The notes under the pieces: model-generated
The model's input: the letters and a program-made list of their open reading frames with translations, nothing else
Databases searched by the model: none
Told to the model about the DNA's origin: nothing
In this document: in pieces, positions 8,741-44,195 of the stretch
Position numbering within the stretch: the stretch's first letter is position 1
Layout of the letters: each line of letters opens with the position of its first letter
Made by a program: the position numbers and the translations under genes
Assembly: GCA_017447265.1 (NCBI GenBank)
Contig: JAFSOA010000014.1
Coordinates: 1 to 58,873, forward strand
DNA: 58,873 nucleotides
Reading direction: 5' to 3'
Source of the DNA: Bacteroidales bacterium
Lineage (GTDB): Bacteria; Bacteroidota; Bacteroidia; Bacteroidales; UBA932

Positions 8741-11077
8741 ATGATACTACGAAACCTAAAGAGTCTTATCCGCCGGTATCCGGTAGCGGTGGTCCTGAAC
8801 TTCACGGGACTGGTGGCGGCGTTGCTTGCCTTTGCCCTGATATTCCTGCAGGCGGATTATGAGCTGTCCTTTGACAAATGCCATCCGACGGCCGACCGGG
8901 TTTTCCGGGCCGATAAGAAAGGTGATGAGTCGCTGTTCAGGAACATCCTGCCGCGAGGCTTTGCTGATGATATCATCGGTTCATCGGCCCACATCGAGGC
9001 GGGGTGCACGCTGGTCCCCTTCTTCGGAGATGTCTTTTTCAGTGTGGCCGAAGAAGGCAAGATGTCGACTGGTTTCAAGCGGGAGCTCCTCTTCGCCTCG
9101 GAGCGCTTCATTGATGTGTTTGGACTTCAGATGGTCGAGGGCGACGCACGAGCGTTGGAAGGTCCCAACTCCGTGATCATCCCCAGATCGCTGGCTGAGA
9201 ATCTGTTTCCCGGTGAGCCTGCAGTCGGCAAGCTGTTGAAGATGGATGTCAAGTATCGGGAACTTCCTGGCGAAACCACGGTGACGGGCGTCTATGAGGA
9301 TTTGCCGGCCAACACGCAGATCGGAAACAACTTGTACATGGCCGTCGGAGACGTGCAGAAAGGATCCTATGGCGCAGCCAATTTCTTATGTTACCTGCTG
9401 CTCGACGATGCCGCCAATGCCCAGGCCGTGGCCGACGAATTCAATACCCGTTTCGACTTCGCTCCGCATGAGGGCTGGCTGACGCCCATCGAACTGGTGC
9501 CGCTGACCAGCATATACTTCCGGAACGAAGGCAACATCTACAAGAGCGGCAGCCGTTCGCAATTGAACCTGCTCATCGCAATCGCCATCCTGATTCTGGG
9601 CATCGGCCTGATCAACTTCATGAATTTCTATGTGGCCCTGACGCCGCTGCGCATCCGTAGCGTGTACCTGCAGAAGATTCTGGGCTCGTCAACGACGCGG
9701 CTGCGCGTCCTGGTGGTGGCAGAAGCCGTGATCTGGTGCTGCTGCGCCTTTGTAGTGACGGCCTTGCTGCTGGGCCCGATTTCCGATGCACTGCTGACCC
9801 GGGGTGTGCTGATGCAGTCTTTCTCCTTCGGCAAGCATTGGAGCCTGCTGCTGTTCGTCGGGACAGTCGCGGTGGCCACCGGTTTCATTGCCGGTATCTG
9901 GCCGGGCATCTATTCGACCTCTGGGCAACCGGCCTTGATCCTGAAAGGCAATTACGGCCTTTCGGCTTCAGGAAAGAATCTTCGGGCCATTCTAGTAGGC
10001 GTTCAGTTCGTCATTTCCACGGCACTGCTCATCTTCGTCCTGTTCGTGCAGCGGCAGAGCGAGTTCATGCAAGAGTATCCCTGCGGCTACGAAAAGAATA
10101 ACCTTGCCGTGGTGGATATCGGCGGAGAAAACGGCCGGAACAAGGCAGACTGGCTTCGGGAACGATTGTGCACCCTTCCCGAAGTGGAAGACGTAGCTTA
10201 CGCCATGGATATCGTCGGCGGCTCGGACATCTATTCCACAGACGGCGTCGATTTTGGGAAAGGGCCGGTGATGATGAGCATGATTTACTGTAGCTGGAGC
10301 CTCCCGCAGGTGTTGGGATTGAACATCCTTGAGGGGCGTGGCTTCCGGGAAAATGATTTGGGCCCCATCCTTTTCACCCAGGACATGAAGGAATACGGAG
10401 CAGAGGCAAAGGTCTATCCGGAAGAATTCGGCGAAGGCGCGCCCATCGTGGGCTTCGTGAACAATGTGAACATCACATCCCTGCGGAAAGCCGACGGGCC
10501 AGTGGGTTTCCAGGTGGTCGGGCAGGATTACTTTTCGATGCCTTTTGCCCATATCCGGCTGGCCGAGGGCGCGGACCGTCTGGCAGCCGTGGAGAAGATC
10601 CAGACCGTCCTGACCGAGATGGACCCGACAATGCAGTTTGAAATCCTGTTCTACGATGCCATCGGCAAGAACCTGTACAGCGGCGAGGAGCGCCTGCGGT
10701 TGGCCGTGTGGCTGTTCTCCCTGCTGGCGGTGCTGCTGTCGCTGGTGGGCATCTGGGGCCAGGTGCTGATGGACGTGCAGTACAAACGGATGGAGATTTC
10801 CGTAAAGCGTGTATTCGGGGCCGACATGGGCCAGATTACCAGCGAAGGCCTGATGCTGTATCTGCGGACGGTAGCCATCTGTTATGTGATTGCGGCGCCC
10901 GTCGGCTGGCTGGTGGTGAGGTATTACCTGCAGCAGTTCGCGCACCGGGTGGGCTTCATGCCGTCGGTGTTCCTGCTGGCGCTGGTGATTGTGGGGGCGT
11001 TGTGTTCGGCCGTGGTGCTGTATCACTACCTCAAGACCGCCCGCGCCAATCCGGTGGAATCTTTGAAAAATGAATAG
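8741..11077 (+). CDS. FtsX/MacB-type ABC transporter permease (SLKNE class)
   Basis: This 778-residue permease has an N-terminal helix (about 15-37, VVLNFTGLVAALLAFALIF), a periplasmic domain to about 265, an FtsX bundle (about 270-400), a helix near 425-445, a second periplasmic domain, and a C-terminal FtsX bundle ending ANPVESLKNE. Coupling segments LQKILGSS and VKRVFGAD are visible. The first of these is less conserved than in the paralogues, which could weaken ATPase contact on one side; this is inference. It lies between two KKE-class permeases, with 37 bases to the upstream gene. Confidence 0.87.
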   Translation: MILRNLKSLIRRYPVAVVLNFTGLVAALLAFALIFLQADYELSFDKCHPTADRVFRADKKGDESLFRNILPRGFADDIIGSSAHIEAGCTLVPFFGDVFFSVAEEGKMSTGFKRELLFASERFIDVFGLQMVEGDARALEGPNSVIIPRSLAENLFPGEPAVGKLLKMDVKYRELPGETTVTGVYEDLPANTQIGNNLYMAVGDVQKGSYGAANFLCYLLLDDAANAQAVADEFNTRFDFAPHEGWLTPIELVPLTSIYFRNEGNIYKSGSRSQLNLLIAIAILILGIGLINFMNFYVALTPLRIRSVYLQKILGSSTTRLRVLVVAEAVIWCCCAFVVTALLLGPISDALLTRGVLMQSFSFGKHWSLLLFVGTVAVATGFIAGIWPGIYSTSGQPALILKGNYGLSASGKNLRAILVGVQFVISTALLIFVLFVQRQSEFMQEYPCGYEKNNLAVVDIGGENGRNKADWLRERLCTLPEVEDVAYAMDIVGGSDIYSTDGVDFGKGPVMMSMIYCSWSLPQVLGLNILEGRGFRENDLGPILFTQDMKEYGAEAKVYPEEFGEGAPIVGFVNNVNITSLRKADGPVGFQVVGQDYFSMPFAHIRLAEGADRLAAVEKIQTVLTEMDPTMQFEILFYDAIGKNLYSGEERLRLAVWLFSLLAVLLSLVGIWGQVLMDVQYKRMEISVKRVFGADMGQITSEGLMLYLRTVAICYVIAAPVGWLVVRYYLQQFAHRVGFMPSVFLLALVIVGALCSAVVLYHYLKTARANPVESLKNE

Positions 11078-32216: not shown

Positions 32217-33869
32217 ATGGCAAATTATCTTGAAGTGGCCGAGTCTTGGCTCAGCAACAGTTACGATGTGGAAACCCAGCGCGAAGTGCTGGAGATGATG
32301 AAGGGCGATCCGAAAGCCCTGGAAGACGCTTTTTACCGCACGCTGGAATTCGGTACGGGCGGCCTGCGCGGCGTCATGGGTGCCGGCACCAACCGGATGA
32401 ACCGCTACACTGTCGCCATGGCTACGCAGGGGCTTGCCAACTATCTCAAGAAGAATTTCAAGGACCAGAAGATTTCGGTGGTGATTTCCTACGACAGCCG
32501 CAACAACAGCCAGCTCTTCGCCCGGGTGTCCGCCGGGGTGCTGATGGCCAACGACATCCTCGTCTATATTTTCGACAATATCCGTCCCACGCCGGAACTC
32601 AGCTTCGCGATCCGGCACCTGGGCTGCAAAGCCGGCATCATGATCACGGCTTCGCACAATCCCAAGGAGTACAATGGCTACAAGGTGTTCTGGGAGGACG
32701 GCGCGCAGATCATCACCCCGCACGACAAAAATATCATCGAGGAGGTGGGCAAGATCACGTCGATGGATCAGGTCAGGTACGATGAAAACAGCTTCCCGCA
32801 GGGCATTGGCGCCGAAGTCGACCGGGCTTTCCTCGACAGCCAGCTGTCGCTGCTCCTTTCTCCGGACAGCGTCAGGCGCCACAGCGACATGAAGATCGCC
32901 TACACGCCGCTGCACGGAACGGGTGTCCGCCTGGTTCCCGCCGGCCTGAAGCAGGCGGGCTTCACGAATGTGTTCCATGTAGACGCGCAGGATGTGAGCG
33001 ACGGCAACTTCCCGACGGTGGTCTCGCCGAATCCGGAAGAGCCGACGGCCATGCGGATGGTCATGGAACGGGCCGACGCCGTGGGCGCCGACATCGCGCT
33101 GGGCACCGATCCCGACGCCGACCGCGTGGGCTGCGCCGTGCGCAATGACAAGGGTGAACTGGTTCTTCTGACCGGGAACCAGATTGCTACGATCGTCACG
33201 AGCTACATTCTTACGCGCTGGCATGAACTCGGCCGGATCGACGGCCGTCAGTTCGTGGTCAAGACCATCGTGACGACAGACCTCCTGAAAAAAATCTGTG
33301 CAAAATACGGCGTCGAACTCTTCGACGTGCTGACCGGTTTCAAATACATCGCCGACAAGCAGCATCTGTACGAGGGCAAGAAGACCTTCATCTGCGGCGG
33401 CGAGGAGAGCAACGGCTTCAATGTCGGCAGCTTCGTGCGCGACAAGGATTCCGTCATCACCTGCTGCATGCTCTGTGAATGTGCGGCCTGGCTGGCCGAC
33501 CGGGGCCAGTCGCTCTACGGCTATCTGCAGGAGATCTATGCGGAGTACGGCTACTTCAAGGAGAGCCTGCTTTCGGTCACGAAGAAAGGCAAGAGCGGCA
33601 TCGAGGAAATCCAGCAGATGATGGTCGACTTCCGCGCCCAGGCCCCGAAGGCTCTCGCCGGCTCGCCGGTGGTGAAGGTCGTGGACTACAACAAGCCGGA
33701 AGAGACGGGCTTGCCGAAATCGAACGTATTGCAGTTCTTCAGCGAGAACGGTTGCAAGGTGACGGTGCGTCCTTCGGGTACCGAGCCGAAGATCAAGTTC
33801 TACTTCAGTGCCAGCGGCCCCGACGCCGACGCCCTGAACGTCGCTCTTCGCGAACAATTCTCCGTCTAG
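32217..33869 (+). CDS. Phospho-sugar mutase (phosphoglucomutase/phosphomannomutase)
   Basis: This 550-residue alpha-D-phosphohexomutase interconverts hexose 1- and 6-phosphates. The catalytic phosphoserine loop is TASHNPKEYNGYK, the Mg-binding loop is DPDADRVG, the sugar-binding loop is GGEESNG and the C-terminal phosphate-binding loop is RPSGTEPKIKFY. N-terminal FGTGGLRGVMG is family-typical, and the length fits the PgcA-like group. It is probably part of glycogen, nucleotide-sugar or envelope glycan supply. It has its own promoter-like box, and a long palindrome separates it from folC. Confidence 0.94.
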   Translation: MANYLEVAESWLSNSYDVETQREVLEMMKGDPKALEDAFYRTLEFGTGGLRGVMGAGTNRMNRYTVAMATQGLANYLKKNFKDQKISVVISYDSRNNSQLFARVSAGVLMANDILVYIFDNIRPTPELSFAIRHLGCKAGIMITASHNPKEYNGYKVFWEDGAQIITPHDKNIIEEVGKITSMDQVRYDENSFPQGIGAEVDRAFLDSQLSLLLSPDSVRRHSDMKIAYTPLHGTGVRLVPAGLKQAGFTNVFHVDAQDVSDGNFPTVVSPNPEEPTAMRMVMERADAVGADIALGTDPDADRVGCAVRNDKGELVLLTGNQIATIVTSYILTRWHELGRIDGRQFVVKTIVTTDLLKKICAKYGVELFDVLTGFKYIADKQHLYEGKKTFICGGEESNGFNVGSFVRDKDSVITCCMLCECAAWLADRGQSLYGYLQEIYAEYGYFKESLLSVTKKGKSGIEEIQQMMVDFRAQAPKALAGSPVVKVVDYNKPEETGLPKSNVLQFFSENGCKVTVRPSGTEPKIKFYFSASGPDADALNVALREQFSV

Positions 33870-33879
33870 TTCTTAGTCC

Positions 33880-34033
33880 GGTTCGCCTGCTGGGCGCTCT
33901 GGTTATTGCTCCGGAACCGTCTCGCTGCGCTCGACCCCTCCCATGCTGCGCATGGGCCCCTCCCTCTTACAGTGCCGAGGGTGGCATGGGTTCCGGAGCA
34001 ATGAACCACCCGCGCCTGTGACGCAAGCGAACC
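33880..34033. repeat. Long nested imperfect palindrome between pgm-like gene and folC
   Basis: Outer arms GGTTCGCCTGC (33880-33890) and GCAAGCGAACC (34023-34033) pair with one mismatch. Inner arms ATTGCTCCGGAACC (33905-33918) and GGTTCCGGAGCAAT (33989-34002) pair perfectly over 14 bases. The centre is rich in CTCGCTGCGCTCGAC and CATGCTGCGCATG. It could fold into a cruciform in DNA or a large hairpin in RNA. I do not recognise it as a named element. Confidence 0.8.
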
Positions 34034-34044
34034 CTGTCCATGAA

Positions 34045-35319
34045 ATGAAATCATACGATGATAAATTGAACTGGCTGTTCAGTCAGTTTCCTTCCTACCA
34101 GAAGGTGGGGAAGGTGGCGTACAAACCGGGCATCGAAACGATGGAGGCGTTCGATGCGGCGCTCGGGCATCCGCACCGTCGCTTCCGCACCATCCATGTC
34201 GCCGGAACCAACGGAAAGGGATCAACCTCCCACATGCTGGCGGCGGGCCTGGCCGCTTGCGGCCTGAAAGTCGGCCTGTATACCTCACCGCACCTGGTGG
34301 ATTTCCGCGAACGGATGAAGATGGTGGAAGGCGATGGCTTCCGGATGATTTCCAAAGATAAGGTGGAAGATTTCCTGGATAAATGGAGGGATTTTCTTGT
34401 CTTGAATCATCCTTCTCTATTCGAGATAACGACAGCTATGGCTTTCGACTTTTTCGCGGCCGAAAACGTGGATATCGCCGTCATCGAGACCGGCCTGGGC
34501 GGCCGACTCGACTCGACCAACGTCATCACGCCCATCCTGAGCATCATTACCAATATCGGCCTGGAGCACTGCGAACACCTGGGTTATACGCTGGCGGCCA
34601 TTGCCGGCGAGAAGGCCGGCATCATCAAGCCCGGCGTACCGGCCGTCGTCGGGGAATTCACCCCCGAGACCCGGCCGGTATTCGAGGCGAAGGCCGCTGC
34701 CTGCGGCAGCCCCCTTACCTTTGCCGTGGAGGCGACGCCGTGTCTTTCGCTGAAGGTGGCTGACCTGGATCTTCCCGGAGACTACCAGGAACGAAACCTT
34801 TGCACACTCTCCGCCGCCGTCGGCATCCTGCAGCCTATGCTGGGCCTCGACCTGGAAGCCTTCCGCAACGGTGTCCGCCACGCCGCCCGGAATACGGGCC
34901 TGCATGGCCGCTGGGAGACCCTGCGTGAGGCCGATCCGGTTCAGCACAAGGCTCAGATCATCTGCGACACGGGCCATAACGCGCACGGCCTGCGCTGGGT
35001 CGCCGAGCAGGTGGACCGGATTTCCTGCGATTATGACAATGTCGTTTTCATTTTCGGTCTGACGCGCGAAAAAGATCTGGATGTCATTGCTCCTCTTCTG
35101 CCGCGCAATGTGCATTATATATTCACGCAGGCTCCAGATCCGAGAGCCTTTCCGTTTAATGAGCTGGCGAACATCATGTCCGATTACGGGCTGGCCGGAA
35201 TGGGCGTTGCCTCGTTTTCATCTGCACTCTCCCTGGCAGACAGTCTCACAGGGGAGAAAGATCTGATTTTCGTGGGCGGAAGCAATTATATCGTAAAGCA
35301 ATTGTTTGAAAATGAGTAA
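34045..35319 (+). CDS. folC: Folylpolyglutamate synthase/dihydrofolate synthase
   Basis: This 424-residue Mur-ligase-type enzyme adds glutamate to dihydropteroate and folates. Motifs are P-loop HVAGTNGKGSTSHML, YTSPHLVDFRERM, VIETGLGGRLDSTNVI, IGLEHCEHLGYTLAAIAGEKAGIIKPG (with the Lys that is carbamylated in this family) and the C-terminal DTGHNAHGL. The start at ATG 34045 (MKSYDDKLNWLF) is chosen because the longer frame from 33943 runs through the palindrome. Its last 8 bases overlap the next gene, so folC is in one transcription unit with the cassette behind it. Base composition drops in AT-rich direction from about 35080 on, inside the gene. Confidence 0.94.
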   Translation: MKSYDDKLNWLFSQFPSYQKVGKVAYKPGIETMEAFDAALGHPHRRFRTIHVAGTNGKGSTSHMLAAGLAACGLKVGLYTSPHLVDFRERMKMVEGDGFRMISKDKVEDFLDKWRDFLVLNHPSLFEITTAMAFDFFAAENVDIAVIETGLGGRLDSTNVITPILSIITNIGLEHCEHLGYTLAAIAGEKAGIIKPGVPAVVGEFTPETRPVFEAKAAACGSPLTFAVEATPCLSLKVADLDLPGDYQERNLCTLSAAVGILQPMLGLDLEAFRNGVRHAARNTGLHGRWETLREADPVQHKAQIICDTGHNAHGLRWVAEQVDRISCDYDNVVFIFGLTREKDLDVIAPLLPRNVHYIFTQAPDPRAFPFNELANIMSDYGLAGMGVASFSSALSLADSLTGEKDLIFVGGSNYIVKQLFENE

Positions 35320-37315
35320 GAATGAAGATCAGTTAATCAAACTGCTGGTCAGGAAAGAGAAGCGTTTTTCTCTCTTCCACTACGCAGGTATGGGAAAAGC
35401 CCGGTTCCGGATATTGGAAGGTACTGTTCCTGTGATGCTTTCTGTCCCACATTGTGTCACTCATTTTCGTGAAGGAAATCTGAAAAAGGCTGAAAAGTAT
35501 ACAGGCGCACTCGCCTTGGTTCTGCACGAGTTGACAGGATGTCATGTTATTTATTCTACAGGCTGCAGGGAATCCGACCCGAATCATGATGATTTTTCAT
35601 GTAATGCTTATCAGGAGGCACTGATCGGTCATGTCAAGGGTCATTCAATTAAAGTTGTAATCGATCTTCACGGTGCTGCGCAGGAGAGGCCTTTCTCCTT
35701 GGAGATAGGCACGGCACCGTCTGAATCTGAACCCTTGTCATCACTCAAGGGATTTGATTTTATTGCCACGCTCATTCGTCTGAGTTTGGAGTACACGACA
35801 AAAAAGAACAGTGGTTTTGTCCTGTGCCAGAACCAGCTATTCAGAGCCAGTAGTCCCAATACAGTAACCAGCGTCGTATCGGGCCGTACCGAAGCTGCCA
35901 GCATGCAGTTAGAAATTAATGCTGATTATCGGGATCCTTCCATCCCTTCACAGCTCGTTTCTCTTATAAAAGGACTGCGTCTGATCATAGAATCTCTGGC
36001 CCGTGTTGATTGGAGATCTTCTTATATCGATGTCAGGCGCTTGTGCCAGTCTCCTAATCCTAAACCTCAAGACCGGGCCATCCTTTATAAGGAAGGTTCA
36101 AAATGGTCTGAGAATGAGGTGGTTTATATCCATTCCGCAGAAGGAGATGTTGATTTGGCCCATGTCCGTCTTGCCGGATTGAAGGAAGTTGCAAGTGAAA
36201 AGTGGGATCCTGGGGAACTCGTTTTTCTGCCGAACAGGCTCATCCATCATCTTTGTGGATGCGAGTGGTCTCTTAACGGGGATGATCCTTTTCTTGAAGG
36301 TATGCCTGTTCTGTTGTCCAGACGCAGTGATCAGGGGCTTCCGATGGGCATTCCGAAAGCCGATAAGATCAATCATATTTATCTTTCCCAGCTGTTATTT
36401 GACAGATTGATCAAATTTTCAAAAAACCGTCGTTTTGTGGTTTTCAACAAGGTGACGGATTCTAGTGTCGATTTTGACTTGACCACGGCCGATTATGGTG
36501 ATGGAGGAACGGTCCTGCAGAATGGCGAACCGGCAGAAAAAGTGATGCTTCCCCGCTACTTCAGCACATTAATGGGCTTGAATGACCATCCTTTCAAGAT
36601 GATACGAAAGGAAGAACTTGATCTCATCAAGGCTTCGTTAATCGATGACGTCCAGCGCGAGACATTCAGTCGTTGTTATAAAGCTATTCCTGATCAAGTC
36701 TATTATATGATCAACCCCGAAGCCGACGCTAAGGACTTGGAATCGGCTGATACTATTTTGAAAGGCTTGGGATGTTATAATGTAGATGTATTGTCATTCC
36801 CGGTTTCGGGAAAGAAGAGAAGGACATTCAGGGATCGGATTGGTTTTTTGTCCGATTATATACTTGAAAAAATCATAGGAAAATCCACATTCCTTCTCAG
36901 GATCAGTTGGACAAATGTCACAGATGACAAAAATGTCGTAGCCCGGCTGAGTCCCAACATGATGAGCCTCTTGGGCGTTTCTGACAACGATAAAGTTATG
37001 ATCCGCTTCCGTGACAGAAAGGTTAAATTGCGGGTATTATCTGATTCCCAGCTGACGGATTATGAAGTTCGCGTCCCGGCTCCGGCCCGAAAGTCGCTGC
37101 GGATGAACAGTATCAATGATGTTGTTGAAATATCCAGAGATATCCACCATACTTTTCTCCGGAATTCACAGGCCCAGACCATTGCCATCCTGGGAACCAT
37201 ATTGGCGGTTTTTCAGGTTTTCCGTGATTTAAAAACGGGAATCATTCTATGTCTTTTCTTTGTCCCGCTCATTCTGTATTTTTCCTTGAACGAAGAGAGA
37301 ATCAAAGTTAAGTAG
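35312..37315 (+). CDS. Membrane-anchored N-formylglutamate-amidohydrolase-like protein with barrel-like C-terminal domain
   Basis: I do not know an experimentally named member of this architecture. The 667-residue protein has an N-terminal domain (about 25-245) resembling N-formylglutamate amidohydrolases: SVPH with His47, TGCRESDPNHDDFS (84-97), VVIDLHGA with His120, and QLEIN with Glu201, a set that could bind zinc and cleave an amide. A middle region (about 245-525) is unrecognised. Residues about 540-610 (VARLSPNMMSLLGVSDNDKV and following) resemble the double-psi beta-barrel of Cdc48-N-like domains. Two membrane helices follow (about 623-639 and 643-658) with a basic tail, so the catalytic part is likely cytoplasmic but anchored. 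The start at ATG 35312 overlaps folC by 8 bases. Composition is clearly AT-richer than flanking genes. Confidence 0.6.
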   Translation: MSKNEDQLIKLLVRKEKRFSLFHYAGMGKARFRILEGTVPVMLSVPHCVTHFREGNLKKAEKYTGALALVLHELTGCHVIYSTGCRESDPNHDDFSCNAYQEALIGHVKGHSIKVVIDLHGAAQERPFSLEIGTAPSESEPLSSLKGFDFIATLIRLSLEYTTKKNSGFVLCQNQLFRASSPNTVTSVVSGRTEAASMQLEINADYRDPSIPSQLVSLIKGLRLIIESLARVDWRSSYIDVRRLCQSPNPKPQDRAILYKEGSKWSENEVVYIHSAEGDVDLAHVRLAGLKEVASEKWDPGELVFLPNRLIHHLCGCEWSLNGDDPFLEGMPVLLSRRSDQGLPMGIPKADKINHIYLSQLLFDRLIKFSKNRRFVVFNKVTDSSVDFDLTTADYGDGGTVLQNGEPAEKVMLPRYFSTLMGLNDHPFKMIRKEELDLIKASLIDDVQRETFSRCYKAIPDQVYYMINPEADAKDLESADTILKGLGCYNVDVLSFPVSGKKRRTFRDRIGFLSDYILEKIIGKSTFLLRISWTNVTDDKNVVARLSPNMMSLLGVSDNDKVMIRFRDRKVKLRVLSDSQLTDYEVRVPAPARKSLRMNSINDVVEISRDIHHTFLRNSQAQTIAILGTILAVFQVFRDLKTGIILCLFFVPLILYFSLNEERIKVK

Positions 37316-37317
37316 TC

Positions 37318-38175
37318 ATGATGATGAAGGGCTATCTGATAGAAAAGTACAGCGATATGGGTGTCGCTTATACTTCTGACCGCCTGATTCAAGAAGCCGC
37401 GAAAGCCGGGGTCGTCCTGGATCGTATCGGAGTACACGACGTTCTGCTTACCGGGGATGGCCCTTTCCATAAAGGCCAGGCGTTGAAGCGCAGAGATTTC
37501 GTTCTCAACCGTTACAAGTGGGGATGGATTAAGGACAAGCTGAACAGTTTGGGGGATGAAAGCTATAATCGGCTCAAGCCATTCAATCGGTTTATTGATA
37601 AATATGAACAGTTACAAAGACTGGATTCACGCTTTTTTCAAAAGCCTCACTATGTATTGGGAACTATCCAGTCGAGTTATGATGCCGTTGCCTCTTTGCT
37701 TGGGGATGTTTTTGTTGTAAAAGGGCTGAGAAATTCGAAAGGGAAAGAGATCTATCTGGTACATTCTCCTTCGGAGTTCAAGCGTCTCCAAGACTTCTTC
37801 CCATTGGAAACGGAGTTATTGTTTGAGGAGTTTATCGCTTCCAGTTTTGGCCGGGATTTGCGATTGTTCTGCATCCGGGGAGAGGCGATTGCAGCGATGA
37901 TCCGGAAATCCAATGGGGATTTCCGATCTAATTTTGCCTTGGGGGCAAGCGTTCAAGCTGTACCTGTTACCGGGGAAATGCGGACAATTGCGGAAGATTT
38001 GTTTGTAGAGACGGGACTTGATGTCATGGGTGTTGATCTGCTCTTCGGTCAAGATGGCTATTATTTGTGCGAAATCAATGTAACACCGGGCATTGAGGGA
38101 ATCGAAGCCGCTACCGGCAGTAATATTGCCTCTTTAATCATCTCCTTGATTGTTAATGATTTGAAAAGTAAATAA
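37318..38175 (+). CDS. RimK-like ATP-grasp ligase
   Basis: This 285-residue protein should ligate a carboxylate to an amine using ATP. Central and C-terminal ATP-grasp motifs are visible: VFVVKGLRNSKGKE with Lys135, LLFEEFI (Glu170/171), GRDLRLFCIRGEAIAAMIRK (Asp180, Arg182, Arg196), FRSNFALGA, MGVDLLF (Asp240) and LCEINVTPGIEGIE (Glu252, Asn254) for Mg2+. The pattern is closest to RimK/LysX, whose members add glutamate or related amino acids to proteins or small molecules. The N-terminal 110 residues lack a clear pre-ATP-grasp signature. Start chosen at 37318; ATGs at 37321 and 37324 are also possible. Two bases separate it from each neighbour, a cassette of three tightly packed genes. Confidence 0.78.
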   Translation: MMMKGYLIEKYSDMGVAYTSDRLIQEAAKAGVVLDRIGVHDVLLTGDGPFHKGQALKRRDFVLNRYKWGWIKDKLNSLGDESYNRLKPFNRFIDKYEQLQRLDSRFFQKPHYVLGTIQSSYDAVASLLGDVFVVKGLRNSKGKEIYLVHSPSEFKRLQDFFPLETELLFEEFIASSFGRDLRLFCIRGEAIAAMIRKSNGDFRSNFALGASVQAVPVTGEMRTIAEDLFVETGLDVMGVDLLFGQDGYYLCEINVTPGIEGIEAATGSNIASLIISLIVNDLKSK

Positions 38176-38177
38176 CG

Positions 38178-39482
38178 ATGAATCGGGAGCAAGTGGATCA
38201 TTTTATATATGCCTCATATCTCCAGGTTGCCGATGAATTGGATTATGATGCACCGGACAGCGTGAAACGTAATCCGGAACTTACGCGTGATCTGCTCGTC
38301 TCGTTGAACCATACTCCTTCTGTCGGCATTACGGGCAGCAAAGGAAAAGGATCGGTCGCCTGTATGTTGTCCTCCATCCTGCAGGCGGAAGAGAAGGTTG
38401 GTCTTTTGACCAGTCCGCATATCCTGTCATTCAATGAACGTTTCAAGGTAAACGGTATATCTATTTCTGACGATGATCTGGCCAGGATCGCCAGTTTTGT
38501 CGCATCGAAGCTGGAACCAGTTTCTGCCATGATTTCCGGAAAAAGCTATATCAGTCCGATTGGTATTCAGGCAGCTATCGGATTGACCTGGTTTCAGGAA
38601 TGCAAGACAACATTCAATGTCTTTGAGTATGGAAAAGGTGTGCGCTACGATGACATTAACAACATCCCTCATACTTTTGCCGTCATCAACTCCATTTTTT
38701 TGGAGCATACCCGTGAATTGGGCGGAACCCTTGAAGCAATTGCCGAGGATAAGTCTTATGCCATCAACCCTTATTCATCAGCCTGTTTTGTCGCAGAACA
38801 GCCTGATGCTGTCAAAAAGGTATTGAGCCGTCGTGGTGCAGCGTGTAAAGTGCCGTTATTGTGGTATGGGCAGGATTTTTACGCCGAAGCGATCCGATAT
38901 ACCCGTTCGGGGATGGCATTTACTGTTTCGGTCTCAGGCAAAAAGATCAGGGACATTCATATTCCATTGTTGGGTGTACATCAGGCGAAAAATTGTGCAT
39001 TGGCGCTGGCTGTGGCAGATGCTGTTATGGATGATTTGGATGAAGATTGTGTCCGGGAACGGTTGAAGTCACTTTATTGGCCCGGGCGAATGGAAATCTT
39101 GTCCTCCTCTCCACTGATTATTCTGGATGCGTGTATCAATCGAAGTAGCGCCGTTTTAGCCCTCGATGTGCTGGATCATCTCAGGATTGACAAGTGTGTA
39201 TGGATAATCGGCATTCCTGATGATAAGGATTATGAAGGAGTCGCCCTCACCGTACAGAGCCGCTCTGTTAGAACCATTCTTACTCGCTCGCAGAATGTCC
39301 ATTATCATTTCACGAACAGACAAGCCGAAGTTCTGCTTCGATCCGGGATTGAAACTATTGGGACCTCATCTGTTTCTGAAGCCTTGGATACAGCCATGAC
39401 ATACGGGGAAGTTGTCTTTATCCTTGGGACAACTTCGGTTGTGGCAGAAGCAGAGCAACTTCGTCGTTTGCGAAGCCTTTAG
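38178..39482 (+). CDS. Divergent FolC/Mur-ligase-type amide ligase
   Basis: This 434-residue protein is homologous to FolC but not orthologous. Shared features: P-loop GITGSKGKGSVACM (50-63), LLTSPHILSFNERFKVNG (76-93), the Mg-binding Glu150, and IFLEHTRELGGTLEAIAEDKS with Lys192 at the position of the carbamylated Lys. Where FolC has GLGGRLDSTN this protein has YGKGVRYDDIN, so the substrate site is changed. The C-terminal ligase domain has GVHQAKNCALALAVADAV, WPGRMEI and ILDACINRS, a weakened form of the FolC DGAHN motif. Cyanophycin synthetase also couples an ATP-grasp and a Mur-ligase module, but as one polypeptide; here they are two genes. The substrate is unknown. Confidence 0.75.
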   Translation: MNREQVDHFIYASYLQVADELDYDAPDSVKRNPELTRDLLVSLNHTPSVGITGSKGKGSVACMLSSILQAEEKVGLLTSPHILSFNERFKVNGISISDDDLARIASFVASKLEPVSAMISGKSYISPIGIQAAIGLTWFQECKTTFNVFEYGKGVRYDDINNIPHTFAVINSIFLEHTRELGGTLEAIAEDKSYAINPYSSACFVAEQPDAVKKVLSRRGAACKVPLLWYGQDFYAEAIRYTRSGMAFTVSVSGKKIRDIHIPLLGVHQAKNCALALAVADAVMDDLDEDCVRERLKSLYWPGRMEILSSSPLIILDACINRSSAVLALDVLDHLRIDKCVWIIGIPDDKDYEGVALTVQSRSVRTILTRSQNVHYHFTNRQAEVLLRSGIETIGTSSVSEALDTAMTYGEVVFILGTTSVVAEAEQLRRLRSL

Positions 39483-39483
39483 C

Positions 39484-40662
39484 TTATCTGAGAATGAATT
39501 TGCGCGCGAGGGCAATGCCGAGCCGGTAGGGGAGCGGACGCAGGGCACGGTCGGCTTCTTTCAGCTTCTCGCGGATCGGAATGCCTTGCGGGCAGTGGCT
39601 TTCGCACTTGCCGCAGCCGATGCACTGCGAGGCGAAGGTGGGCTCTTTGGTCATGGCGACGTTCTGGAAGTACTGCCAGCGTCCGGACCATTTGGTCTCG
39701 GCATACATGGCATTGTAGGAACGGAATACGCCCGGGATGTCGACGCCCCTGGGGCAGGGCATGCAGTAGCGGCAGCCCGTACAACCGACTCTTTCGGTCT
39801 TCCGTATCAGTTCCCGGACCTGTTCGATCACGGCGTGATCTTCTTTCGTGAAAGCACCGGCGGCGGCCTCGGAGGCTGTTGCGACATTCTCTTCAATCAT
39901 CTTCAGGGAGTTCATGCCCGATAGGACGACCGTGACGGCAGGCTGGTTGTACAGCCAGCGGAATGCCCATTCGGCGGGTGTCCAGCCTCTTCCACTGCGC
40001 GCCATGGCATCCTTCGCTTCTTCGGGAAGCAGGTTGACCAGCTTGCCGCCGCGGAGCGGTTCCATGATGATGACGGGGATACCCTTGGCGGCGGCCGCCT
40101 CCAGTCCCTTGACGCCGGCCTGGGTAGACTCGTCGAGGTAGTTGTATTGGATCTGGCAGAAGTCCCAGTCGTAGTTGTACAGGATTTTCAGGAAATTGTC
40201 GGTATTGCCGTGGTAGGAGAAGCCGATGTTGCGGATGACGCCCGTCCGTTTCTTCTCCGCGATCCAGTCGAGGATGCCCAGGGACTTGAGCCGTTCCCAT
40301 TCCGCCACGTCGGTCAGCATGTGCATCAGGTAATAGTCCACATAGCTTGTGCGGAGACGGCGGATCTGCTCGTCAAACAGGCGGTCGATGCCCGATGACT
40401 TCAGGATGAGATAATGGGGCAGCTTGGTGGCGATGTGCACCTGCTCCCTGATGCCGTTCTTCTCGAGAATCTGGCCCAGGGCCATTTCGTTTCCCGGATA
40501 GAGGTACGCGGTGTCGAAGTAATTGACGCCGGCCTTGAAAGCGGCCATAATCTCGCTTTCGGCCTTTTCGATGTCAATGGATCCACCCTTGCGGGTAAGA
40601 CGCATGCAACCGTATCCCAGCAGGGACAGCGCTTCTCCGTAGCGGTTCTTTCTGTATTGCAT
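39484..40662 (-). CDS. Aldo/keto reductase with C-terminal 4Fe-4S ferredoxin domain
   Basis: This 392-residue cytoplasmic oxidoreductase has an AKR barrel (about 1-280) with NYFDTAYLYPGNE (catalytic Asp and Tyr), the Lys of ATKLPHY and the His of YYLMHML, followed by a ferredoxin-like domain with CTGCRYCMPCPRG and CIGCGKCESHCPQG. Such fused AKRs are common in anaerobes and probably exchange electrons through the clusters; physiological substrates are unknown. It begins 14 bases after the GH89 gene on the same strand and so may be the last gene of the Hdr-containing operon. It converges with the Mur-ligase-like gene, with one base between the stop codons. Confidence 0.93.
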   Translation of the reverse strand: MQYRKNRYGEALSLLGYGCMRLTRKGGSIDIEKAESEIMAAFKAGVNYFDTAYLYPGNEMALGQILEKNGIREQVHIATKLPHYLILKSSGIDRLFDEQIRRLRTSYVDYYLMHMLTDVAEWERLKSLGILDWIAEKKRTGVIRNIGFSYHGNTDNFLKILYNYDWDFCQIQYNYLDESTQAGVKGLEAAAAKGIPVIIMEPLRGGKLVNLLPEEAKDAMARSGRGWTPAEWAFRWLYNQPAVTVVLSGMNSLKMIEENVATASEAAAGAFTKEDHAVIEQVRELIRKTERVGCTGCRYCMPCPRGVDIPGVFRSYNAMYAETKWSGRWQYFQNVAMTKEPTFASQCIGCGKCESHCPQGIPIREKLKEADRALRPLPYRLGIALARKFILR

Positions 40663-40676
40663 GGCTCAACAAATAT

Positions 40677-42896
40677 TTATTTGCCGGACATGATCCGGCG
40701 GACCAGTGCGATGGGATCGCCCTGCGGCTTCGACGGGAAGCTGCCGGGACGTTCGGCCCACCAGTTGTATTCGTGGTCTTTCATGGCTTCGAGCAGGGTG
40801 TCGAAGCGTTCGCCCTCCAGCTTTTCGCCTGCGGCTACGGCTTCATCCGCGGCCTCGAAGAACATCTCCCAGCGCGGTTTGTAGTAGGTTTTCACCAGAC
40901 CGGCCCAGGAACGGTCCGCATAATCCGTGAGCAGATTGCCCCGGTCGCCCCAGGATGTCAGCAGGTTGCGGGCGTTGGACTCGAAGTAGTCGGCCTCTTC
41001 CGGCGTGGCGCCCCAGCTGCGTGCATCGGCGATCCACTTGCCCACCAGGAAGTAGTCCTGCGAAGCGAGCAGTTCGTCGAGGGTGTCGAAGCCGGCCAGC
41101 ATCTCTTCTTTCAACGCGGCCATCTGCTCCGTATCGCCGTTCTCGTAGGCCGTCTTGTATTCGGCGAAGCGCTGCTCGAACTGGTTGCTCAGGTATTGGC
41201 GCGTGAGGTTCACCAGGTCGAATCCGTACGAAGGGCCTTCGCCGTCGGCGGCCAGCAGCCGGTCGATCACGGAGCGAAGCTTCTCGTTTTCATAGTTGAA
41301 ACGGACGCTGGAGTGGTAGGAGGTCGAGCGCTGGAACGAGGGCCGCAGGTTCATGACCGGGCTGTGGCCCGGGACGGAGCGCTGGATGTAGATCTCGTCG
41401 AAGAGTTCCTTCCAGGCAGCCCTGGCATCTGCATTGTTCACGCCGGAACGCATCTGCGCCAGCGTGCCCGCCCAGGTGTCGAGGTTCTGGTGCTGCGGCA
41501 TGTTCCACGCCTTTTCAAAGATGAACTGGTACATGAAGGGATTGCAGTCGAAACCTTCGAGCGTAGAGCCCAGACCCTGGAAACTCGGCCCGGCCTCGGC
41601 AAAGGCACCTTCGATCAATCCATTGATCTCCTGGATGTTGCCCGCCAGGAAGGTGTTGCCGCCGAAGTTGCCCAGGTAGCACCAGATGAACGGGATGCCG
41701 TAATAGCTCTGGGTCTTGCGCCAGACCTCCATCCGCTCGCAGTAGTAGTCGAGCAGGATCGATTGCCCGGCCGGATAGGACGTCAGGAAGGCTTTCACGC
41801 GCTCGTCGGAGTCGCCCTCGAACCAGTATTTGCGCTCGTTGTAGAAGAGCCAGGTCATCTGGAGCCAGACGGCGTCGGGGTCGGCGGCGGCCAGCGATTC
41901 ATACACGCCGTGGCTCACGCGGCCCAGGTAGGCGGGATCCCAGCTCTTGGGAATCATTTCGTTGAAGATATCGATGCCGTAGACATGGTCGGTTCCGTAG
42001 ATCGCAAGCTCTTTCTCGAGGAAACGCTTCTGGATCTCGGGGAAAAGCTTGTCCTCCGGGTCGAGGAACCAGGGGTAGTCCTCCAGGGCGAAGCCTGCCC
42101 AGTCGCTCATGCGCTCGATCTTCGCGTCGGGGTAGATGCGCTGCAGCTCCGGCGGCACATGGCCGGCGAAGGCCGGCAGCACCGGCTTCATGTTGAGTTC
42201 GCGCTCGCGCGCGACAATCTGCTTCTGCAGGGCTTCCTGCCCTTCGAGCCAGGATTTCGGCAGCGGGCCGCCCCAGCGGTCGATGTTCAGCATGCGGTGC
42301 CAGGGCAGGTGGGCGGGTCCGGTAAAGTAGCTGCGGACCTCTTCGTCGCTCAGGCCCAGTTCAGTCCAGACCTGGTACCAGATGGATTCCTGGCCCGTGA
42401 TGGCCAGCGGCAGGTTGATGCCGTTGAGCGCCATCCAGTCGATGAAGTGCTCCCATTCCTTCCAGGTCCACCAGGGCATGGTGTAGCCGTAGGTACAGTA
42501 GTTCAGGAAGAAGCGCTGCGGCACGCGTGCGTCGATCTTGACGGGCGTCTCCACGGCGGGCAACTTCTTCGGCATGTCTCCCTTTTCCCAGGCGAACCAG
42601 CCGACATTGACGTGGCAGTAGTATTTCAGGTAGTAGTTGAGGCCTACGGCCATCGAGTTGGCATTGTTGCCGCCGATGACGATCTTGCGGCCTTCGCTGC
42701 GCAGGGTGAAATAGTCGGATGCCCTTGCGGGCAGGGCCTCGAAGACGAAATGGCCTGCCTGCCTGGGAAAGATGCGGTGGGCCAGCGCCGTGGCGGCGTT
42801 CACCTCGGGGTTGTCGCTGGCGGGTGTGGTCTGGCAGCCGGACGTCATGAGCAGGAGGGCGGCCAGGGCCAGGACGGAAACAAGAAGTCTTTTCAT
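40677..42896 (-). CDS. Alpha-N-acetylglucosaminidase lipoprotein (GH89)
   Basis: This 739-residue exported glycosidase is predicted to remove terminal alpha-linked GlcNAc, as found in mucin O-glycans and heparan sulfate. The N-terminus MKRLLVSVLALAALLLMTSGC carries a lipobox (TSGC). The GH89 central domain includes NYCTYGYTMPWWTWKEWEHF, WMALNGINLPLAITGQE, the acid/base region GIDIFNEMIP and the nucleophile region GSTLEGFDCNPFMY. Three-part architecture (small N-terminal domain, TIM barrel, helical C-terminal domain) and length agree with the family. It starts 12 bases after the cysteate synthase gene. A functional tie to the Hdr genes is not obvious. Confidence 0.93.
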   Translation of the reverse strand: MKRLLVSVLALAALLLMTSGCQTTPASDNPEVNAATALAHRIFPRQAGHFVFEALPARASDYFTLRSEGRKIVIGGNNANSMAVGLNYYLKYYCHVNVGWFAWEKGDMPKKLPAVETPVKIDARVPQRFFLNYCTYGYTMPWWTWKEWEHFIDWMALNGINLPLAITGQESIWYQVWTELGLSDEEVRSYFTGPAHLPWHRMLNIDRWGGPLPKSWLEGQEALQKQIVARERELNMKPVLPAFAGHVPPELQRIYPDAKIERMSDWAGFALEDYPWFLDPEDKLFPEIQKRFLEKELAIYGTDHVYGIDIFNEMIPKSWDPAYLGRVSHGVYESLAAADPDAVWLQMTWLFYNERKYWFEGDSDERVKAFLTSYPAGQSILLDYYCERMEVWRKTQSYYGIPFIWCYLGNFGGNTFLAGNIQEINGLIEGAFAEAGPSFQGLGSTLEGFDCNPFMYQFIFEKAWNMPQHQNLDTWAGTLAQMRSGVNNADARAAWKELFDEIYIQRSVPGHSPVMNLRPSFQRSTSYHSSVRFNYENEKLRSVIDRLLAADGEGPSYGFDLVNLTRQYLSNQFEQRFAEYKTAYENGDTEQMAALKEEMLAGFDTLDELLASQDYFLVGKWIADARSWGATPEEADYFESNARNLLTSWGDRGNLLTDYADRSWAGLVKTYYKPRWEMFFEAADEAVAAGEKLEGERFDTLLEAMKDHEYNWWAERPGSFPSKPQGDPIALVRRIMSGK

Positions 42897-42908
42897 GGCT
42901 GAAGGGGT

Positions 42909-44195
42909 TTATCGGAAGATCTTTTCTATTTTTTCGACGATGTCCGGGTCGGAGGCGTTGCCGATCAGGCTGGGTTTCAGGTAGTTGCACTTGTGCTCGC
43001 GCTGGAAGCGGGCCTGACCGCCGCCGGTGACGTTGAGCAGGGCCACGGTATCGCGCGGCAGCTTGCCGGCTTCGAAGGCGTTGATCATGCCCTGGAGCGC
43101 TACGGCTGCGGCGGGATGGATGTCGATGCCTTCGGTATCGAGGAAGAGATGCTGCATGGCGGCGATGTCGGCGTTGGTGGCGCATTCGATGTCGCCGCCG
43201 GCATCCAGCATGGCGTCGTAGACGCCGCCCCGCAGGCTGTACGGCGGCCGCCGGTTCGAGAGCACCTTGGCATCGATCTCGAGGGCCAGCACGCGGGCTT
43301 TTTCATCGTCCATGGGCAGCAGTGCGCGGCTGCCGGCCTTCCAGGCGTCGTACATGGGCAGGAAAGGCACGTTCTGCGAGGGGAAGAGTTTCATCTTGTG
43401 GCTGCCGAAGCGCCCGTCATCGATCAGGCGGAGGTTGGCCTCCCATGCGGCGATGGTGCCGGTGCCGGAGCCTATGGCCTGGAAATAGGCCTCGGGGGTA
43501 CGCTGCAGAACCTTGGCGGCAGACAGCACGGTGGTGGCCATGCCGTCGCGGCGGGCGATGTTCTTGGCGCCGCCTTCGGCGAAGAACATCGGCGAGGTGC
43601 AGGCGGCATCACCGAGGGCGATGGCGTCGAAATAGTCGGTGCCGCGCGGTGAGCACATGAGTTTCACGCATTCGTTCAGGGGTCTCTCAAACCAGAGCGC
43701 ATCGATGTTCTCTTCCGGCACGCTGAGCAGCAAAGGGATGTTGTTCTCCGAACAGACTTTGGCAAAGGCCCGGGCCGTGTTGCCGGCCGAGGCCACCACC
43801 AGTACGCGCTTCTCTCCGTCGGGGATGCGGGCGCACACGCTGTAGGCTTCCGTTTCCTTGAAGGAGCAGGTGCTCATGGCAGCGCCGATTTCGGGCCACC
43901 AGCCCGAGAAGGCGATATGCAGGTTCGGGAGTTTCAGCCTGGCGGCGAGTTTTTCGCTGCGGTAGGTGACGTTCGGGGCGGATCCCTTCAGCATCCGCCG
44001 CACCGGCATCCAGTCCGCGAACTGGTAGATGCCCCGTTCCTCCGGCCCGAAAGCAATTTGTTTCTTCTCATAAACGGCCCTGACCAGCGAGGGCTCCTGG
44101 CATTGCGGGTCGGCCAGCGACCACCCCGCATCCTCGAAGCGCCGGCCGGTGGCCACAGTTTCCAGCTCGTATTTCGTGGGTTCAAATCCGTTCAT
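42909..44195 (-). CDS. Cysteate synthase (PLP fold type II, threonine synthase-like)
   Basis: This 428-residue PLP enzyme belongs to the threonine-synthase superfamily. The PLP lysine is probably Lys113 in STCSFKETEAYSVCARIP, the phosphate- or substrate-binding loop is ASAGNTARAFA (135-145), and the C-terminal PLP-phosphate loop region is GSGTGTIAAWE. True threonine synthases have SFKDRG at the lysine; SFKETEAY and the N-terminal pattern (YELETVATGRRFEDAGW) match what I recall of Bacteroidales proteins named cysteate synthase, which replace the phosphate of phosphoserine by sulfite to make L-cysteate. Cysteate feeds sulfonolipid (capnine) synthesis in Bacteroidota and coenzyme M in Methanosarcina. 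Its start overlaps the stop of the HdrDE/EMO-like gene by 4 bases. Threonine synthase is the alternative. Confidence 0.72.
   Translation of the reverse strand: MNGFEPTKYELETVATGRRFEDAGWSLADPQCQEPSLVRAVYEKKQIAFGPEERGIYQFADWMPVRRMLKGSAPNVTYRSEKLAARLKLPNLHIAFSGWWPEIGAAMSTCSFKETEAYSVCARIPDGEKRVLVVASAGNTARAFAKVCSENNIPLLLSVPEENIDALWFERPLNECVKLMCSPRGTDYFDAIALGDAACTSPMFFAEGGAKNIARRDGMATTVLSAAKVLQRTPEAYFQAIGSGTGTIAAWEANLRLIDDGRFGSHKMKLFPSQNVPFLPMYDAWKAGSRALLPMDDEKARVLALEIDAKVLSNRRPPYSLRGGVYDAMLDAGGDIECATNADIAAMQHLFLDTEGIDIHPAAAVALQGMINAFEAGKLPRDTVALLNVTGGGQARFQREHKCNYLKPSLIGNASDPDIVEKIEKIFR

Follow-up and report, generated by a model that had tools for sequence, protein, structure and literature searches.

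A putatively foreign segment in folC of a Bacteroidales bacterium encodes a hydrolase-like membrane protein and two relatives of amino-acid ligases

Which pathway do three tightly packed genes behind folC serve, and how did they come to stand there? The genes in question are located in a stretch of 58,873 nucleotides (hereafter the window; GenBank assembly GCA_017447265.1, contig JAFSOA010000014.1) from a Bacteroidales draft genome of 2.13 Mb, which is divided over 19 contigs and has a completeness of 78.66%. They lie on the plus strand downstream of folC and encode proteins of 667, 285 and 434 aa, termed P1, P2 and P3. The ATG of P1 at 35312 is located 8 bases inside folC, the stop codon of which ends at 35319, and gaps of 2 bases each separate P1 from P2 and P2 from P3. 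The reading frames of folC and of all three genes are open across their full length. A preliminary description of the locus had given this arrangement correctly, including coordinates, strand, overlap and gaps, and had proposed a shared pathway of amino-acid conjugation, possibly related to folate. That interpretation is partly supported by the present analysis, in which activities and substrates are predicted from sequence. Beyond it, we observed a low guanine-plus-cytosine (GC) content, an exchanged folC 3′ end, last codons of P3 that stem from the old folC tail, and a CDC48_N-like domain in P1.

The foreign appearance of the genes is evident from their composition. P1-P3 have a GC content of 45-47%, in surroundings where 500-base intervals mostly reach 55-69% (∼60%), and their GC at third codon positions is 0.47-0.50 as compared to 0.78 in the next gene. 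Among 40 searched genomes of the genus, the folC most similar to that of the window (84%) was found in a near-sister genome, G937, in which no P1 match was detected and only a few bases separate the folC stop from a reductase gene. The neighbouring genes, named by eye, are nearly the same in both genomes (phosphoglucomutase-like, 98.4%; aldo/keto-reductase-like, 98.5%; alpha-N-acetylglucosaminidase-like, 97.4%), as opposed to 85.2% for folC. An identity profile in 60-base steps located this difference: 2033 of 2122 positions were identical in 32217-34339 (95.8%), 109/156 in 34340-34499 (69.9%), 502/530 in 34500-35029 (94.7%) and 187/262 in 35030-35319 (71.4%). Beyond the three genes, identity was high again, with 62 of 67 positions in 39454-39520 and 3358 of 3470 in 39521-42990 (96.8%). 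Fisher values for the identity steps were 7e-19 and 2e-15, both post hoc as the regions were picked after viewing the profile. The patch at 34340-34499 (70% against ∼95% around it) probably reflects the same or another recombination.

The match to the 3′ end of the G937 folC restarts at 39454, 29 bp before the P3 stop. The final 29 bases of P3 are thus the host's former folC tail in another frame, and the stop codon of P3 is located in this tail because one base is missing there relative to G937. On the left side, the exchanged folC 3′ end (last 290 bp) is open and alignable; its product is identical at 40/91 to 56/88 positions to folC proteins of the genus and at no more than 36/91 positions to 22 loci tested outside the genus, and neither comparison identified a donor lineage. 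Together, these findings indicate that a foreign segment consisting of the folC 3′ end and P1-P3 was recombined into folC, and the limits of this island are better stated as about 35030-39453. The simplest account of the alignments would be recombination via folC homology on the left and via short homology on the right; no convincing flanking repeats or transposon ends were found within 34900-41000. An insertion behind an intact folC was considered and dropped when G937 revealed the exchanged folC end. Since a foreign folC 3′ end is part of the island, the donor would have had folC directly before P1, and the joints make folC-P1-P2-P3 a very probable order in the donor, with the genes nearly overlapping and read as one operon. 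Whatever the function of the genes, the joint is instructive: the cargo apparently came in via homology to a core gene, and the end of the old host gene encodes the last codons of the cargo. The features are listed in Table 1. Promoter and terminator scans (10 sites versus 6.3 in shuffles, and 13 versus 6.9) were not used as evidence.

Table 1. Features of the folC locus, in positions of the window
Feature	Position	Strand	Basis or remark
Host folC	34045..35319	+	folC 299.4 bits; apparently foreign sequence from ~35030 onward; start placed at MKSYDD by eye
First diverged patch within folC	34340..34499	+	G937 comparison
Putatively foreign folC 3′ end, left joint of island	35030..35319	+	G937 comparison
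P1, membrane-anchored hydrolase-like protein	35312..37315	+	Open reading frame, family alignment, helix prediction
P1 N-formylglutamate-amidohydrolase-like domain, residues 24-234	35381..36013	+	Alignment, modelled fold
P1 CDC48_N-like domain, residues 538-609	36923..37138	+	Weak match, 21.4 bits, cut-off 35.1
P1 two predicted membrane helices, residues 619-659	37166..37288	+	Hydrophobicity
P2, RimK-type ATP-grasp ligase	37318..38175	+	Pfam and NCBIfam profiles, alignment
P3, divergent FolC-family Mur ligase	38178..39482	+	NCBIfam profile, FolC alignment
Remnant of old host folC 3′ end in other frame, end of P3, right joint	39454..39482	+	G937 comparison
Oxidoreductase gene, context outside island	39484..40662	-	Same place in G937

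The two ligase relatives were readily placed in families. P2, which the preliminary description had called a RimK-like ATP-grasp protein, indeed matched the Pfam RimK profile at 95.2 bits (cut-off 21). Its best NCBIfam family was RimK at 120.8 bits, which is under the cut-off of 143.4, and no specific subfamily was reached by the models for E. coli RimK (82.6 bits), MptN (80.5), LysX (70.3) or CofF (46.3). The closest solved relatives of P2 are RimK-type S6/alpha-L-glutamate ligases. Aligned with solved alpha-L-glutamate ligases, P2 retains D-x-R, FRSN and N-x-x-PG-x-EGIE-x-x-TG; it therefore shares the RimK domain and the FRSN and EGIE..TG stretches with the RimK and MptN ligases, and differs from them by its score under the RimK-family cut-off. 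P2 was the only RimK-family match found in its genome, which is incomplete.

For P3, the NCBIfam folC profile (TIGR01499) scored 188 bits (cut-off 162.65) and was reached to position 395 of 400, and Pfam Mur_ligase_M scored 54.1 bits (cut-off 24), although only 114 of 398 residues (29%) are identical to the host folC protein. In an alignment of 19 FolC proteins, 95 columns showed a conservation of 90% or more, and P3 retained 46 of these. The kept residues include the GKGS loop, E150, R156, D158, N161, H177, K192, Q269, N272, G303-R304, D317, N321 and K350, whereas N55K, F127P, F128I, E129G, T131Q, G155V and H320I are substitutions, and P3 departs from the conserved FE..T and D-x-x-HN (AHN-type) motifs, which lie on the substrate side (F128I, E129G, T131Q, H320I). 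Relative to solved FolC enzymes (PDB 2gca and others), P3 thus has the nucleotide loop, the metal/lysine residues, GR and D317 in common; the roles of individual residues in nucleotide, metal/lysine and substrate binding are those that we presume for FolC. On this basis, P3 seems to have preserved its ATP and metal machinery but to have changed on the substrate side, in agreement with the changed substrate signature that had been proposed for P3. The family phrog_16655 was rejected as a special relative of P3, the host folC scoring higher (231.4 versus 174.8 bits).

The assignment of P1 as N-formylglutamate-amidohydrolase-like held at the level of its fold and of its relatives. P1 itself gave no match to the Pfam profile of these enzymes (FGase; PF05013) at E up to 1, whereas PF05013 was matched at E up to 0.1 by 12 of 23 proteins in its family alignment. 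A model of the N-terminal domain could be aligned with structures of the FGase family, in support of a common fold. The best structural matches of the hydrolase domain were the FGase-family entries 2odf and 2q7s, followed by poly-gamma-glutamate hydrolases and carboxypeptidases, and Foldseek also returned pyroglutamyl peptidases, amidases, purine phosphorylases and gamma-secretase at E of about 1e-4 to 1e-3. H47, D94, D118, H120 and E201 are invariant across the 23 rows. In the poly-gamma-glutamate hydrolases PghP and PghL (PDB 3a9l, 5onj), the zinc ligands are His, Glu five residues on, and His, next to a catalytic Glu (PMC6506827). By sequence alignment, the invariant H47, H120 and E201 of P1 may correspond to part of this arrangement, but no invariant Glu is present at H47+5, so that the zinc ligand Glu46 is without an invariant counterpart in the P1 family. 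P1 is regarded as a predicted zinc amide hydrolase with an N-formylglutamate-amidohydrolase/poly-gamma-glutamate-hydrolase fold. In 3 of the 23 aligned relatives, a GGACT (gamma-glutamyl cyclotransferase-like) domain is fused to the hydrolase domain. These fusions occur in Dadabacteria and Deltaproteobacteria drafts (L064 and L065, both 9515-10573; L068, 2794-3945), where their genes sit, by eye, behind dapF-like and amidohydrolase-like genes. Six of 27 loci were dropped before counting in alignment A4, namely L075, L078 and L079 as near-duplicates and L085, L088 and L089 for a wrong open reading frame; several A4 rows were trimmed manually at the start, and L084 and L087 also at the end. A PDB sequence search with profile A4 gave a single match (E 0.018) to an unrelated DNA polymerase record.

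Compared to N-formylglutamate amidohydrolases, P1 has ∼430 extra residues, which include the CDC48_N-like domain and the membrane helices. Its C-terminal end consists of two hydrophobic helices, which bears out the membrane anchor noted before. The CDC48_N-like match, though below cut-off, is supported by the alignment of P1 residues 511-636 with a Halobacterium plasmid protein, P0003 (L004 7446-8528), which itself matches CDC48_N at 68.1 bits. CDC48_N sequence occurs twice in this Halobacterium protein, which also has two hydrophobic stretches at its C-terminus. Modelling of P1 residues 415-667 alone from the single sequence was unusable (mean predicted local distance difference test score 43.5, predicted template modelling score 0.24).

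What could these proteins do together? We tentatively favour, at a probability of about 0.38, a glutamyl-tail module linked to folate or a folate-like carrier, with a substrate and direction that we infer, because two carboxylate-amino-acid ligases, one of them a FolC relative, are combined with a donor position behind folC and with a hydrolase that resembles, in its fold, enzymes cleaving N-acyl-Glu, gamma-Glu or peptide amides and that has relatives fused to a gamma-glutamyl cyclotransferase-like domain. The identity steps, low GC, tight spacing, P2 and P3 scores and invariant residues of P1 back this reading. FolC would make a gamma-glutamyl carrier, a folate or folate-like molecule, to the terminal carboxylate of which P2, as a RimK/MptN-type ligase, would add glutamate by an alpha linkage. 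P3 would act on a different acceptor, joining glutamate or some other amino acid to it, and P1, as a membrane-anchored zinc amide hydrolase, would cut glutamyl amides of the tail, its CDC48_N-like domain possibly holding a substrate or partner. The foreign folC 3′ end in the island thus agrees with the shared, folate-related pathway of the preliminary description, as does the conservation of catalytic residues in all three proteins (the invariants of the P1 hydrolase family, the RimK-type motifs of P2 and the FolC nucleotide and metal residues of P3).

The distribution of the genes, however, weighs against this reading. At 27 loci that encode relatives of the P1 hydrolase domain, flanks of up to 10 kb, shorter where a contig ended, contained no match to P2 or P3 at E < 0.01, and the expectation that the genes would be neighbours elsewhere was thus not borne out. 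P1 was found in its own genome only, among 295 genomes of the class, 398 of the family and 393 of the order (overlapping sets), and so was the match to hydrolase profile A1 among 395 genomes of the phylum. In the order, 94 of 99 genomes searched with P3 gave a match, at the level of FolC proteins; apart from P3 itself, the match with the lowest E-value is 29% identical. Exact-peptide scans of viral contigs (P1, P2, P3) and genome contigs (P1) confirmed no relative. No second copy of the P1-P2-P3 set was found, and a conserved three-gene system is not supported. Among Arthrobacter-type plasmids, an annotated ATP-grasp gene adjoins a P1-type hydrolase gene in 2 of 5 records (hydrolase then ligase; L003 7995-9765, L024 3989-5801); the L003 ligase, when scanned, belonged to the R2K clade. 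Neither the R2K ligase P0002 nor P0003 was matched in the 27 loci at this threshold (E < 0.01). A three-gene set in Dadabacteria and Deltaproteobacteria (288 aa, 416 aa, hydrolase) was discarded, its first two genes appearing dapF-like and amidohydrolase-like by eye.

A more specific version of the glutamyl-tail proposal, which we consider unlikely, is that folC-P1-P2-P3 makes and edits tails of mixed gamma- and alpha-linked glutamates, carried by folates or by a related pterin, with P2 as folyl-alpha-glutamate ligase, P3 as re-targeted tail ligase and P1 as membrane-bound hydrolase. We know of no gene assigned to a folyl-alpha-glutamate ligase activity. Such an activity was reported in E. coli extracts in 1986, and E. 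coli folates were reported to have distal alpha linkages (Ferone et al., 1986, as cited in PMC1971073). Supporting precedents are described in the sections of PMC8141765 on glutamate ligases: RimK-type ligases build glutamate tails on C1 cofactors, MptN is an alpha-glutamate ligase acting on the pterin cofactor tetrahydromethanopterin, and the methylofuran ligases MyfA and MyfB include a RimK-type ligase that extends a glutamate tail, methylofuran being the very likely acceptor of MyfB, which made polyglutamate in vitro. MyfA and MyfB, in contrast to the present set, are two ATP-grasp ligases, and those sections name no FolC-like ligase or hydrolase with them (PMC8141765). If the proposal is true, a RimK-type ligase and a hydrolase would be tied to folate tails, alpha-linked folate glutamylation would gain a candidate gene, and the tail of a core cofactor would have been reshaped by recombination in folC. 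Each enzyme is in or near a known family; new are their combination and the link to folC, and a cassette of N-formylglutamate amidohydrolase, RimK and FolC was not found in the open-licence PubMed Central (PMC) literature, as the preliminary description had anticipated.

The strongest functional rival, though itself unlikely, is protein tagging: much as RimK modifies ribosomal protein S6, P2 and P3 would attach amino acids to a protein, and P1 would recognise this protein via its CDC48_N-like domain and remove the tag at the membrane. The nearest solved relatives of P2 fit this idea, as does the CDC48_N match with its Halobacterium counterpart, CDC48_N being a domain of protein-binding ATPases. 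However, no protein substrate is known to us for the FolC family, to which P3 belongs, the island is without a target protein gene, and the MptN model scores P2 like RimK. ATP-grasp ligases have been proposed as protein modifiers (PMC4431377).

Rather less likely is a non-working unit, which could be an assembly chimera or a freshly imported fragment in decay. This would fit the incomplete draft in 19 contigs, the single occurrence, both joints lying within folC sequence, and the end of P3 in host folC sequence; however, a single error of assembly would hardly produce all the switches observed (patch, return, tail, right joint), the frames of folC and the three genes are uninterrupted from end to end, and P3 extends to the usual FolC end. 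It is quite improbable that the ATP-grasp and Mur-type ligases make a storage polymer or a short peptide, with P1 as depolymerase. Cyanophycin synthetase combines the same two ligase types, and a poly-gamma-glutamate hydrolase is among the structural matches of P1, but cyanophycin synthetase is one polypeptide and its models scored only 10.4 bits for P2 and 19.3 bits for P3 (cut-off 850), and the PgsB model scored 12.3 bits for P3 (cut-off 222.7), a protein clearly closer to FolC (188 bits). Least probable is a cassette for conflict or defence, in which infection would lead to modification of a metabolite or protein and the P1 membrane part would be the effector: the island is rare, foreign-looking and compact, and the relative of the P1 C-terminus lies on a Halobacterium plasmid near AAA ATPase, phospholipase D family and HNH endonuclease genes, but no PADLOC model of a known anti-phage system matched P1, P2, P3 or P0003 at E 0.01, the other island genes look biosynthetic, and the entry point at folC suggests metabolism.

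The surroundings of folC also vary in relatives. In ten folC regions inspected, a glucosaminidase-like gene follows folC within ∼200 bp in five (G771, G789, G975, G931, G990); a reductase gene lies between the two in G937, ∼3 kb separates them in G840, and the glucosaminidase-like gene was not in the stretch fetched for G753, G899 and G752, the latter from another genus. The oxidoreductase gene at 39484-40662 lies behind folC here and in G937 and elsewhere in G771 and G789 (73% identical), which suggests that it moved too. An element of ∼190 bp at 33861-34050, before folC, occupies the corresponding position in G937 and G975; in five further relatives, inspection of the folC region did not reveal it. 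If translated, it adds a spurious N-terminus to folC, and the first 35 residues of its reading match 14 further places in G789.
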